A DNA stretch of 64,000 bases, taken from Oceanispirochaeta crateris. Lineage in GTDB: Bacteria > Spirochaetota > Spirochaetia > DSM-2461. The notes beneath the pieces were generated by a model, which saw only the letters and a list, made by a program, of their open reading frames with translations, was not told the origin of the DNA and made no database searches. Position 1 is the stretch's first letter, and each line of letters starts with the position of its first letter. The DNA lies in NCBI RefSeq assembly GCF_008329965.1, contig NZ_CP036150.1, positions 1,550,001 through 1,614,000 of the forward strand. The letters run 5' to 3'. The translations under genes and the position numbers were made by a program. Below are positions 16,893 through 20,846 of the stretch, one piece after another.

Positions 16893-17438
16893 TCAGGACC
16901 CTACATTTTCACTCTCATACTCAATGAGTGTTTTGATCTCAATTCCTGGTAATTTATCAGCATATTTTAAGAACGGAAGTCCAATGATACCAAAAATATG
17001 CTTTACATTAGCACCACCCATGGTGAGCAATTCCACAGCAGCCCCCATAGTTCCACCTGTTGCCAAGAGGTCATCCACAAGGAGCACATTCTTTCCCTGA
17101 GGAACATCACTTTGATGAATTTCAACCTCGGCTTTTCCATATTCCAACTGATATGACTTTTTGAGTGTCACACCGGGGAGTTTTCCCGCTTTTCTCACCA
17201 GGATAAGAGGTATTTGCATGGCCTTTGCAAAGGGAGCCGAAAAAATAAACCCTCTGGATTCCACAGCCGCCACAGCATCTATTTTTTTGTCTTTATAATA
17301 TTCAACCATCTGATCAATACACCATGAGAAGGCTTCGGGATTGGTTAATATGCTTGTTATATCATAGTAAAGAATTCCTTTATGAGGAAAATCTTCTATT
17401 TTTCGTATTGAATCATCTAGGTTGAAATTACTGGACAT
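16893..17438 (-). CDS. apt: Adenine phosphoribosyltransferase
   Basis: Salvages adenine with PRPP to AMP. 181 residues, type I phosphoribosyltransferase fold. Family motifs are ESRGFIFSAPFA, the flexible-loop VRKAGKLPG, and the PRPP-binding VLLVDDLLATGGT. GGGGAG lies about 8 bases before the ATG. It follows tsaD with an 85-base gap. Confidence 0.96.
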   Translation of the reverse strand: MSSNFNLDDSIRKIEDFPHKGILYYDITSILTNPEAFSWCIDQMVEYYKDKKIDAVAAVESRGFIFSAPFAKAMQIPLILVRKAGKLPGVTLKKSYQLEYGKAEVEIHQSDVPQGKNVLLVDDLLATGGTMGAAVELLTMGGANVKHIFGIIGLPFLKYADKLPGIEIKTLIEYESENVGS

Positions 17439-17523: not shown

Positions 17524-18537
17524 TCAAGGATAACCTCTTTTAAAGGAGGGAACTCTGGCTTTTGCATTTTCAGAAAAATCCGATGTTTCTCCAACTTTCA
17601 AATACTGATAACCGATGCCCGCAATCATGGCCGCATTGTCTGTACACAGCTCCATTGAAGGATAGTAAGTTGTCACCTCGTGGAGATTTGTTAATGAGGT
17701 CCTCATATAAGAATTAGCCGTCACACCCCCACCGGCAACAACGGTTCTGATTCCTGTAAATTCTACGGCACGTTTTACTTTCTTAATGAGTATATCAATA
17801 GCCCGTTTTTGAAATGAAGCGGCGATATTTTCCTTTGTTTTATCAAAACCAGGATTTAAAAATTGATCCAGTTGATTAATGACAGCGGTCTTTAGTCCCG
17901 AATAGGAAACATCAAAGACATGATCACCTTTGTGTAGATTCGGACTGGGAAATCGGAATGCCTTGGGATCTCCCTGAGAAGAGAGCTTATCAATGGCAAT
18001 TCCTCCGGGATATCCCAAATCATAGTACTTAGCCACTTTATCAAAAGCCTCTCCACAGGCATCATCAATGGTTGTTCCTAAAACCTCAATATCATCAAAA
18101 CTGCGGACTATGGAGATCACTGTATGCCCACCAGATACAAGCAATCCCAAATAGGGATAGGGAATGTCATTTTCAAGATGGGGTGCATAGAGATGGGCTC
18201 TGATATGATCGACTCCGATAAAAGGAACCCCTAAAGACCAAGCCAACCCTTTGGCAAAGGATAAGCCTACCAAAAGAGAGCCGACAAGACCCGGCCTATT
18301 TGTTACGGCGATGCCGTCCAGTTCATCTTTATTGATTCCGGCTTCAGAGAGAGCCTGCTCTACTACAGACCAGATCCACCGGGTATGAAGACGGGATGCG
18401 ATCTCTGGTACAACACCCTGCCATGGTTTATGAAGTTCGATCTGTGTGGCGATAACATTACTACGGATAGTACTTCCGTCCTGAACAACAGAAGCAGCAC
18501 ATTCATCACAAGAGGATTCTATTCCCAATATATACAT
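17524..18537 (-). CDS. tsaD: tRNA N6-adenosine threonylcarbamoyltransferase TsaD
   Basis: Transfers the threonylcarbamoyl group to A37 of ANN-decoding tRNAs. 337 residues in the ASKHA fold: N-terminal MYILGIESSCDECAA, iron-ligand HIRAH motif, LVSGGHT and the C-terminal CTDNAAMIAGIG. The ATG is the canonical family start yet has no Shine-Dalgarno. A promoter lies immediately upstream, so the message is predicted to be leaderless. Confidence 0.96.
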   Translation of the reverse strand: MYILGIESSCDECAASVVQDGSTIRSNVIATQIELHKPWQGVVPEIASRLHTRWIWSVVEQALSEAGINKDELDGIAVTNRPGLVGSLLVGLSFAKGLAWSLGVPFIGVDHIRAHLYAPHLENDIPYPYLGLLVSGGHTVISIVRSFDDIEVLGTTIDDACGEAFDKVAKYYDLGYPGGIAIDKLSSQGDPKAFRFPSPNLHKGDHVFDVSYSGLKTAVINQLDQFLNPGFDKTKENIAASFQKRAIDILIKKVKRAVEFTGIRTVVAGGGVTANSYMRTSLTNLHEVTTYYPSMELCTDNAAMIAGIGYQYLKVGETSDFSENAKARVPSFKRGYP

Positions 18538-18575: not shown

Positions 18576-19415
18576 TCAGCCCTGTATATAATCTTTCAAC
18601 TCAGAGGCTTCTTCTTTTAATTTTTTAAGCGCTCTGATCTCAATTTGCCGAACAGTTTCAGGAGAAATACCCATCTTTTCACCAATCGTCTTAAGGGTGT
18701 GCTTTTTGCCGTCTACAAAATTATACCTGTAGCGGATGATATTCCTCTCATTCTCCTTAAGCTTGTAAAGAGAGTCTCTTGTATCCTGTTCAGCACATTT
18801 TGTAAAAAAATCACCATCAGGGTTATAGTTATCATCGGACAGAACATCCATAAGACAACCATTCTCAATATTTGTCTCGGAATAAAGAGACACGGGATTA
18901 GATGAAAATTCCATGATTGAAACAACATCATTGTATTTGACCTTTGTTCCCTCAGAAATTTCCTGAAGCGATGGAGATCTCTTATGCTGGATACCAAAGA
19001 CATGAATAAAATCATTGATATGACGAAGAGATTCCTCTTTTCGATAAGGAAGTCTGATTGAACGGCTACGGTCTGTTAAAAATCGGGTGATAGCCTGTTT
19101 TATCCACCAGGCTGCATAGGTACAAAAACGGACATTCTTTCTATAATCATATCGTTCTGCCGCTTTTATCAACCCTAAATTGCCTTCCTGAACCAAATCC
19201 ATAAGGCTGACACCTGAAATCTGATAAGATCGTGCCATTTTGACAACCAACCTCAAATTTGAGTTAATCATCTTCAACCTGGCTTTCTCATCTCCGTTGG
19301 CAATTTTTTCTGCCAGCATGACTTCTTCTTCAAATGTGAGTAACTTATATCGGCTTATTTCATCAAGATAAAATTTAAAACTTGTATCATAAGATGTATC
19401 TGTCGTGTATTTCAT
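18576..19415 (-). CDS. RNA polymerase sigma-70 family factor (RpoS-sized, group 2-like)
   Basis: 279 residues without region 1.1. Region 1.2/2.1 starts at FKFYLDEISRYKLLTFEEE. Region 2 is NSNLRLVVKMARSYQISG, LMDLVQEGNLGLIKAAERYD and RFCTYAAWWIKQAITRFL (-10 recognition). Region 3 is about residues 130-200. Region 4 is TLKTIGEKMGISPETVRQIEIRALKKL (-35 helix-turn-helix). It is too short for the housekeeping RpoD, so an alternative sigma is likely, but the regulon cannot be read. GGGGGTG precedes the ATG, and a -24/-12 element lies directly upstream. Flagellar rod genes are the upstream neighbours on the same strand, separated by a terminator. Confidence 0.92.
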   Translation of the reverse strand: MKYTTDTSYDTSFKFYLDEISRYKLLTFEEEVMLAEKIANGDEKARLKMINSNLRLVVKMARSYQISGVSLMDLVQEGNLGLIKAAERYDYRKNVRFCTYAAWWIKQAITRFLTDRSRSIRLPYRKEESLRHINDFIHVFGIQHKRSPSLQEISEGTKVKYNDVVSIMEFSSNPVSLYSETNIENGCLMDVLSDDNYNPDGDFFTKCAEQDTRDSLYKLKENERNIIRYRYNFVDGKKHTLKTIGEKMGISPETVRQIEIRALKKLKEEASELKDYIQG

Positions 19416-19441
19416 GGCATTACACCCCCTGTCTAATAAAT

Positions 19442-19458
19442 AGCATTTTCCATGCCAA
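19442..19458 (-). promoter_or_regulatory. Sigma-54-type -24/-12 promoter before the sigma factor gene
   Basis: Minus strand reads TTGGCATG, four bases, ATGCT. The invariant GG (19456-19455) and GC (19444-19443) are separated by exactly 10 bases, as in TGGCAC-N5-TTGCW. Predicted +1 is near 19431, leaving a 15-16-base leader with the GGGGGTG ribosome site. Confidence 0.55.
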
Positions 19459-19533: not shown

Positions 19534-19710
19534 ATGCTGAAAAAATCGATTATTATGTCTTATTTTGTATACACCTTCATATTTTATAACTCAAATATGA
19601 CTAGTATTGAATCCAGAGGGGGCGGAGATCATGGAGATGTCTATTGGAATTGCTCCCATAAAAAAACCGGCTGGTACAGCCGGTTGAAGTATGACAAAAA
19701 GGATTATTAA
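19534..19710 (+). CDS. Possible 58-residue small protein
   Basis: Begins MLKKSIIMSYFVYTFIFY, a short basic then hydrophobic N-terminus like a signal or membrane anchor. A Gly/His/Trp/Tyr-containing tail follows (GGGDHGDVYWNC, then KKTGWYSRLKYDKKDY). GGAG lies 10 bases before the ATG. Its 3' half coincides with the leftward terminator of the flagellar operon and its stop overlaps the flgJ stop. It may be fortuitous. No family recognised. Confidence 0.2.
   Translation: MLKKSIIMSYFVYTFIFYNSNMTSIESRGGGDHGDVYWNCSHKKTGWYSRLKYDKKDY
19658..19685 (-). terminator. Terminator of the flgF-flgG-flgJ operon
   Basis: Perfect 8-bp stem AACCGGCT / AGCCGGTT (19685-19678 and 19672-19665) with a 5-base loop, followed by T residues on the minus strand. 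It lies 22 bases past the flgJ stop. The 291 bases between flgJ and the sigma gene otherwise contain only the doubtful small ORF and the sigma-54-type element. Confidence 0.8.
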
Positions 19711-20045
19711 AGAATATCAGAGGGTAACTGTCTTGAGAGTTGCTGAAACATCATATTGCCAATGCCGAGACCGGCTGTGCCGCTCATCTTTTTAGCATAC
19801 TCATCATAGAGCATGTCATCAAAGATCTCTTCACCCATATTCCTCTTGCTTAAATCGGAATAGTTGATTGTCTTTTTCATAGAGTCCAGCATCTGTTTGA
19901 TAAAGATGGCCTCAAAATCGTTGCAAGCCTCTTTCAGCTTATCCATTTCACCGGAACTAACCTTATTGGACTGCAGTTTACCTTCCAGTTGGACGGAGGA
20001 ATTATTACTTAAATGATAGTTACCTGCAGCACTTATATTATCCAT
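19707..20045 (-). CDS. flgJ: FlgJ-type rod-binding domain protein
   Basis: 112 residues matching the N-terminal rod-capping domain of FlgJ: LKEACNDFEAIFIKQMLDSMKKTI and YDEYAKKMSGTAGLGIGNMMFQQL. The C-terminal peptidoglycan hydrolase domain of enterobacterial FlgJ is absent, as in many spirochaetes and Firmicutes. Acts in periplasmic flagellar rod assembly. It follows flgG by 6 bases and ends the operon. Confidence 0.88.
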   Translation of the reverse strand: MDNISAAGNYHLSNNSSVQLEGKLQSNKVSSGEMDKLKEACNDFEAIFIKQMLDSMKKTINYSDLSKRNMGEEIFDDMLYDEYAKKMSGTAGLGIGNMMFQQLSRQLPSDIL

Positions 20046-20051
20046 CTAGCT

Positions 20052-20846
20052 CTACCTCTTCAGATTATTGGCGATACCCAACATGGTATCCGATGTCTGT
20101 ATGGCTTTGGAGTTCAACTCATAGGCCCTCTGGGCAACAATCATGTTAACCATTTCTTTTACAACTGACACATTGGAACTTTCAAGAAACTTTTGATAGA
20201 CCTTACCCATACCGTCAAACCCGGGACGTCCTCCTATGGGATCTCCCGAAGCACTAGTCAGTTTGAATGTATTTTCACCTATGGCCTGCAGACCTGCGGG
20301 ATTGACAAAACGAAAAAGCTGGACCTGCCCCACTTCGACAGGATCATCGCTACCGGGTAGCTTTACATTAATTCGCCCATCCTGGCTTATGGCGAAGGAT
20401 TCTCTGATAAACCCCTCTGGAAGGATAATTTCCGGGAGTACTTTATTTCCGTTAGAAGTAACAAGCTGACCATTGCTGTCAATTTTAAAAGAACCGTCTC
20501 TTGTATATCCAAAGCTACCATCAATTTGAAGAGTTCTGAAAAAACCCTCTCCCTGAATGGCAATATCCGATTCGTTTCCTGTATTCTGGAGAGATCCCTG
20601 GGTAAACATTCGCTGTGAGGCTGCAACTTTTACACCATGACCTACCTGAATACCAGTAGGAACAACCGTATCTTCTGTTGCGGGAGTTCCGGCTATTTTT
20701 TGAGTCTGATAAATCAGATCTTCAAAATCGGCTCGAACCTGCTTAAAACCCGTAGTATTTACATTGGAGAGGTTATTGGAAATTGTATCAATGTTAAACT
20801 GCTGTCCGTTCATTCCTGAGGCAGCGGTCCATAATGATCTCATCAT
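20052..20846 (-). CDS. flgG: Flagellar basal-body distal rod protein FlgG
   Basis: 264 residues. N-terminal rod/hook signature MMRSLWTAASGMNGQQFNID then SNNLSNVNTTGFKQ; central domain with GEGFFRT and GYTRDGSFKID; C-terminal SNVSVVKEMVNMIVAQRAYELNSKAIQT. The length matches FlgG. It assembles the distal rod of the periplasmic flagellum. It lies 25 bases after the flgF-like gene. Confidence 0.94.
   Translation of the reverse strand: MMRSLWTAASGMNGQQFNIDTISNNLSNVNTTGFKQVRADFEDLIYQTQKIAGTPATEDTVVPTGIQVGHGVKVAASQRMFTQGSLQNTGNESDIAIQGEGFFRTLQIDGSFGYTRDGSFKIDSNGQLVTSNGNKVLPEIILPEGFIRESFAISQDGRINVKLPGSDDPVEVGQVQLFRFVNPAGLQAIGENTFKLTSASGDPIGGRPGFDGMGKVYQKFLESSNVSVVKEMVNMIVAQRAYELNSKAIQTSDTMLGIANNLKR

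Follow-up and report, generated by a model that had tools for sequence, protein, structure and literature searches.

Two questions are raised by a small sigma-70 family gene in Oceanispirochaeta crateris: whether it is transcribed from a sigma-54 promoter, and how such an arrangement would relate to the RpoN-RpoS cascade of Borrelia. The window, by which we mean the whole stretch of 64,000 nucleotides analyzed here, holds the gene on its minus strand, with the features collected in Table 1. A sequence-only reading of the window had proposed a sigma-54-type site with 10 bases between its GG and GC, GGGGGTG as the ribosome-binding site, and a 279-residue sigma factor without region 1.1. All three are present. 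On the minus strand, 19458-19442 reads TTGGCATGGAAAATGCT; GG lies at 19456-19455 and GC at 19444-19443, leaving 10 bases in between. Its core, TGGCATG-N4-ATGCT (19457-19442), lies 27 bp upstream of the ATG at 19415. Compared to the consensus TGGCAC-N5-TTGC, the site matches at 10 of 12 positions with exact spacing; T replaces C at position 6, and A replaces T in TTGC. The ribosome-binding site is read at 19429-19423. Searches of the protein found sigma-70 regions 1.2, 2, 3, and 4 and gave no match for region 1.1, which is the pattern of a group 2-like factor. Its scores fall well under the NCBIfam cut-offs for RpoD and for proteobacterial RpoS (214 bits for TIGR02394, where the cut-off is 378.7). 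The gene two places downstream we take, by inspection of its sequence, to be apt-like.

Table 1. Features of the sigma factor locus, in window coordinates.
Feature	Position	Strand	Basis
Presumed apt-like gene, next downstream neighbor, beside the rpoS orthologue in several relatives	16893..17438	-	position
tsaD, downstream neighbor, kept in Borrelia	17524..18537	-	family search and synteny
rpoS orthologue, 279-aa sigma-70 family factor, regions 1.2-4	18576..19415	-	ORF, family searches, tree, synteny
Ribosome-binding site GGGGGTG	19423..19429	-	sequence
Predicted transcription start, 12-14 bp downstream of GC	19429..19431	-	inference; Borrelia rpoS start 14 bp downstream of GC (PMC1976401)
Sigma-54 -24/-12 promoter TGGCATGGAAAATGCT	19442..19457	-	sequence; 10/12 consensus; orthologous site in nearly all orthologues
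Enhancer-like palindrome TGTATACAAAATAAGACA, centre 108 bp upstream of -24 GG	19556..19573	-	PWM 15.8, next best position 2.6
Intrinsic-terminator-like hairpin after flgJ	19665..19685	-	sequence analysis
flgJ, rod-binding protein, upstream neighbor, kept in Borrelia	19707..20045	-	family search and synteny
flgG, upstream neighbor	20052..20846	-	family search and synteny

By itself, the site in the window is weak evidence for a promoter. It is modestly unusual: when the 200 bp upstream are shuffled, 78 of 5000 sequences score equally well, and a relaxed pattern allowing one mismatch finds 3 matches in the 64-kb window where 3.7 are expected. Because the motif count in the window alone shows no excess, conservation in orthologues was used as the evidence. 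Orthologues were sampled from the organism's own family, from named genomes, from the phylum at large, and from further fetched regions. In a first set, every one of 31 orthologues with assembled upstream DNA has a site matching 9 to 12 of the 12 consensus positions. In a larger set, 95 of 97 loci have a site of at least 10 of 12, compared to 37 of 1940 shuffles; the exceptions are L029, with 9 of 12, and L214, with no site. TGG is invariant in all 96 loci having a site. The GC keeps its C in 90 of these, and the other six read GT at -12. Across the ten core columns the majority base averages 93%, versus 44-46% in the flanks. The box in the window, at 10 of 12, is among the weaker ones of the set. 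Orthologues with the site span 25 families, as counted by family codes, leaving out L196 (G409), which was first taken as an orthologue and then placed by the tree in the clade of L021, a second sigma factor described below. The GG/GC pair, whose lack of conservation in close relatives the sequence-only reading had named as a refutation, is kept there, and the promoter is conserved across the phylum. As negative controls, RpoD and the sigma factor genes L023 and L024 show no such sites. Paralogous sigma factor genes in general were rejected as a control, because the L021-type group itself has sigma-54 sites; only RpoD and L023/L024 are negative.

We judge the promoter to be real because the site is conserved in orthologues, and both its assignment to sigma-54 and the comparison with Borrelia are well supported by sequence. 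That rpoS is expressed mainly from a sigma-70 promoter, or by read-through from flgJ, with the -24/-12 match arising by chance, seems to us very improbable. A single -24/-12 site is not rare in itself, and one weak sigma-70-like site (9 of 12) does occur upstream at 19543-19515, but such sites upstream show no excess over shuffles, and the -24/-12 box is conserved across the phylum at a matching position while its flanks have drifted. The terminator-like hairpin after flgJ argues against read-through; since it separates the sigma factor gene from flgJ (19685-19665), that gene probably needs a promoter of its own.

The tree and the gene order both connect the window gene with Borrelia. Borrelia-type genomes, meaning here those with small AT-rich chromosomes and one activator, have the same gene order as the window, flgJ-rpoS-tsaD, at loci L177-L183, with TGGCACAATTTTTGCA or close variants upstream. 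A 69-row tree, built by a quick method and with a long Borrelia branch, joins the window gene, Borrelia rpoS, and Treponema homologues in one clade (SH-aLRT 96), which leaves out the paralogue L021 from the same genome, RpoD, E. coli RpoS, and sequences from other phyla. Borrelia rpoS is known to follow flgI-flgJ, and primer extension placed its transcription start 14 bp downstream of the GC, a start that is lost in an rpoN mutant (Burtnick et al. 2007, PMC1976401). On clade and neighbors, the window gene is orthologous to Borrelia rpoS. The sequence-only reading had suggested that another spirochaete lineage may have an RpoN-to-RpoS cascade equivalent to that of Borrelia; rpoN, activators, promoter conservation, tree, and gene order support it, and because clade and neighbors are the same, the cascade is homologous to that of Borrelia and not just equivalent. 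Two very diverged 274-aa Treponema sigma factors, L364 (G216) and L365 (G316), lie behind the composite pattern of palindrome and promoter described below, which suggests that rpoS orthologues in Treponema are under-recognized.

The 4.01-Mb genome, a single contig, has one rpoN (E=1.7e-55) and 13 strong sigma-54 activator domains (PF00158), so that both the sigma factor, whose absence would have refuted the sequence-only reading, and the AAA+ activators that this reading would require were found. Across the genome, the strict pattern TGGCAYNNNNNTTGCW matches 13 times and its reversed control once. One match falls between divergent genes for a PspF-like activator (L014) and a PspA-like protein (both named by inspection), and the motif search thereby recovers an expected target in this genome; other matches precede genes for solute-binding proteins near activator genes. 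Because 378 of 393 genomes of the phylum have rpoN, its co-occurrence across the phylum is uninformative. In four Borrelia-like genomes of genus g12 (G262, G101, G280, G310), the match to the rpoN DNA-binding domain is missing, weak, or split; either decay of rpoN or faulty assembly may lie behind this. One of them, G262 (L177), has the weakest -24/-12 box of the Borrelia loci.

An unbiased count of dyads in the DNA preceding the promoters singled out GTAT-N8-ATAC, present in 41 of 96 regions, with 0.5 expected and a maximum of 17 for any dyad in shuffles. The matrix built from clear cases describes TGTATA-N6-TATACA. Its center mostly lies 100-109 bp from the -24 GG on the upstream side, and further out in Treponema; for most members of the class the position is fixed at about -101 to -109. 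In the window copy the right half is degenerate. In its TGT...ACA outline the palindrome is comparable with the TyrR and NifA boxes. Most orthologues outside Borrelia have it; the matrix did not find it in Borrelia, in the families of L212-L216, in family f28 (L172, L205), or at L063. Searched for across the class, the combination of palindrome and promoter gave more than 100 matches in 86 of 395 genomes, versus 6 control matches, and the genes behind this composite enhancer-promoter are mostly rpoS or a gene for a membrane protein of about 205 residues. Lineage-specific cases, named by inspection, are a secreted or outer-membrane-like protein in genus g4 (L367-L369) and a GlpA-like dehydrogenase in family f15 (L291). 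A second palindromic element, near AATTCCTTATATAATAAGGAATT and about 40 bp upstream of -24, is sharply positioned in the rpoS and second-target promoters of relatives and weak in the window.

The gene for the membrane protein has its own copy of the arrangement in this genome. At G000:C1:3142056-3142832 (L302, L363), the palindrome and a sigma-54 site, spaced as at rpoS, precede the conserved gene for the protein (about G000:C1:3142215), and the same arrangement recurs before it in many relatives. The 22 aligned members share RKxxH, FGDGxxS, and KDxDNxxxP-like motifs, which presumably resemble those of CTP-dependent polyprenol or diacylglycerol kinases. Searches of the protein against Pfam and NCBIfam gave no confident name, with a sub-threshold hint of CTP_transf_1 in two members only. 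The pairing at two loci bears on whether the palindrome serves an unrelated regulator, such as a repressor, acting on a sigma-54 promoter that another protein activates without an enhancer. The second conserved palindrome at about -40 fits the idea that more than one factor may act. Against it, the distance from the palindrome to -24 is nearly fixed, the palindrome is coupled to sigma-54 promoters at the second locus as well, and it co-occurs with one type of activator, all of which leaves an unrelated regulator a decidedly unlikely explanation.

As to which activator that would be, Rrp2 was assumed at first to bind the palindrome, and the presence/absence table favored another type, represented in this genome by L006 (G000:C1:1326449), a 502-aa GAF-AAA+-Fis protein. 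Our tally covers genomes with activators listed, the lists not being exhaustive for every genome. In a first tally, all 18 palindrome-positive genomes and none of the 10 palindrome-negative ones have an L006-type activator. Adding G394, G414, and G390, which are positive by the matrix at lower scores (12.0-12.8), brings the positives to 21 of 21, and the negatives stay at 0 of 10. No L006-like protein was found among parse-failed proteins checked in the palindrome-negative group. The Fisher value for the association, 2e-8, overstates independence because the genomes are related. The palindrome-negative set is small and partly deep-branching, and the status of genus g18 of family f9 comes from a whole-genome pattern scan rather than from an rpoS promoter. 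In family f9, the palindrome and an L006-like HTH go together in genus g49; both are missing from genus g18, which has Rrp2 alone.

Activation by the Rrp2 orthologue, as in Borrelia and here through the palindrome, deserves to be weighed. The closest match in this genome to Rrp2, the sole Borrelia activator, is L003 (G000:C1:1234795), with 54.5% identity and a recognition helix similar to that in Borrelia (GRKTLH). The first tally has L003-type activators in 17 of 18 palindrome-positive genomes, the exception being G005 with a copy that contains stops. Rrp2-type activators, however, occur in nearly all palindrome-positive genomes and in palindrome-negative ones too (Borrelia, G409, G263, G174, G046), whereas the L006 type splits the two groups without exception; and in G005 the palindrome is intact while the Rrp2 gene is interrupted. 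The Rrp2 orthologue is on balance an unlikely choice. In that same-genus genome (G005:C171, L245), the Rrp2 orthologue has two in-frame stops. The likely activator outside Borrelia is thus a GAF-type enhancer-binding protein acting through the upstream palindrome, not an enhancer-less Rrp2. The assignment to the L006 type is correlative, a strong lead and not proof, because the genomes are related and the activator lists are not exhaustive for each. Borrelia Rrp2 activates without a nearby enhancer (Burtnick et al. 2007, PMC1976401), and the absence of both palindrome and L006-type activator in Borrelia would fit that report.

The genome has a second sigma factor gene with a conserved sigma-54 promoter, TGGCACGATACTTGTA. 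This paralogue, L021 (G000:C1:996545-997351, plus strand), encodes 281 residues, 35% identical to the window factor. L021 and its relatives L045, L046, and L050-L053 have sigma-54 sites of 11-12 of 12. A different dyad, TGKGTCA-N3-TGACMCA, precedes each of the seven genes whose upstream DNA is long enough (L021, L050-L053, L045, L196), with best matches of 12 to 14 of 14 letters centered 105 to 158 bp upstream; the set is small and this count comes without a shuffle control. The dyad of L021 itself is TGTGTCA-N3-TGACACA.

We consider it highly probable that, taken whole, the best explanation is a sigma-54-driven spirochaetal RpoS, probably activated by the GAF activator L006 at the palindrome, with Borrelia using Rrp2. 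Promoter sequence and conservation, orthology, the presence of rpoN and activators, and the co-occurrence of the palindrome with L006-type proteins are observed; from them we infer the steps of transcription, DNA binding, looping, and signal. RNA polymerase with sigma-54 (RpoN) would transcribe rpoS from the -24/-12 promoter, with the start about 15 bp ahead of the ATG. Bound to the palindrome 108 bp upstream, an AAA+ enhancer-binding protein (most likely L006) would reach the closed complex by looping and use ATP hydrolysis to open it. RpoS synthesis would in this way answer a small-molecule signal that the GAF domain senses, and the same activator would also drive the gene for the membrane protein of about 205 residues. 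Borrelia kept the promoter, lacks the L006-type activator and the enhancer, and uses Rrp2.

On evolution we lean, with less assurance, toward a broader reading. The sigma-54-to-RpoS link would be ancestral to most of the phylum; outside Borrelia it would work through a GAF activator and a TGTATA-N6-TATACA enhancer that also serve the lipid-kinase-like gene, while Borrelia would have lost both and been rewired to an enhancer-less Rrp2, and the paralogous sigma factor would be driven by sigma-54 through a different dyad. The literature consulted presents the RpoN-RpoS pathway as a distinctive feature of Borrelia that serves transmission from tick to mammal. If the circuit is old and phylum-wide, its original job would have been in free-living and gut spirochaetes, with host adaptation a later use, and loss of the dedicated activator and enhancer would explain the enhancer-less Rrp2 of Borrelia. 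Our searches of open-licence literature turned up no account of this promoter outside Borrelia; the circuit is of a known kind, and the variant architecture outside Borrelia was not found described there.

Among known systems, Escherichia coli RpoS is likewise an alternative sigma-70 family factor with regions 1.2-4, but it falls outside the spirochaetal clade and has other gene neighbors, and the window protein reaches 214 bits versus a cut-off of 379 for the NCBIfam RpoS model. Sigma-54 promoters with FhlA/NifA/TyrR-type activators share with this system an activator of GAF-AAA+-Fis HTH make-up and, about 100 bp ahead of the promoter, a TGT...ACA dyad; here, in contrast, the target is a sigma factor gene and the dyad is TGTATA-N6-TATACA. 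The RpoN-RpoS/Rrp2 cascade of Borrelia burgdorferi has the orthologous rpoS, flgJ and tsaD as neighbors, a nearby -24/-12 promoter, rpoN, and an orthologue of Rrp2. It differs in that Borrelia lacks the upstream palindrome and GAF-type activator found here, and that its Rrp2 needs no enhancer (PMC1976401), whereas an enhancer-like palindrome is conserved here. Borrelia has one activator where this genome has many, and this genome adds a second sigma-54-driven sigma factor and a shared second target gene.
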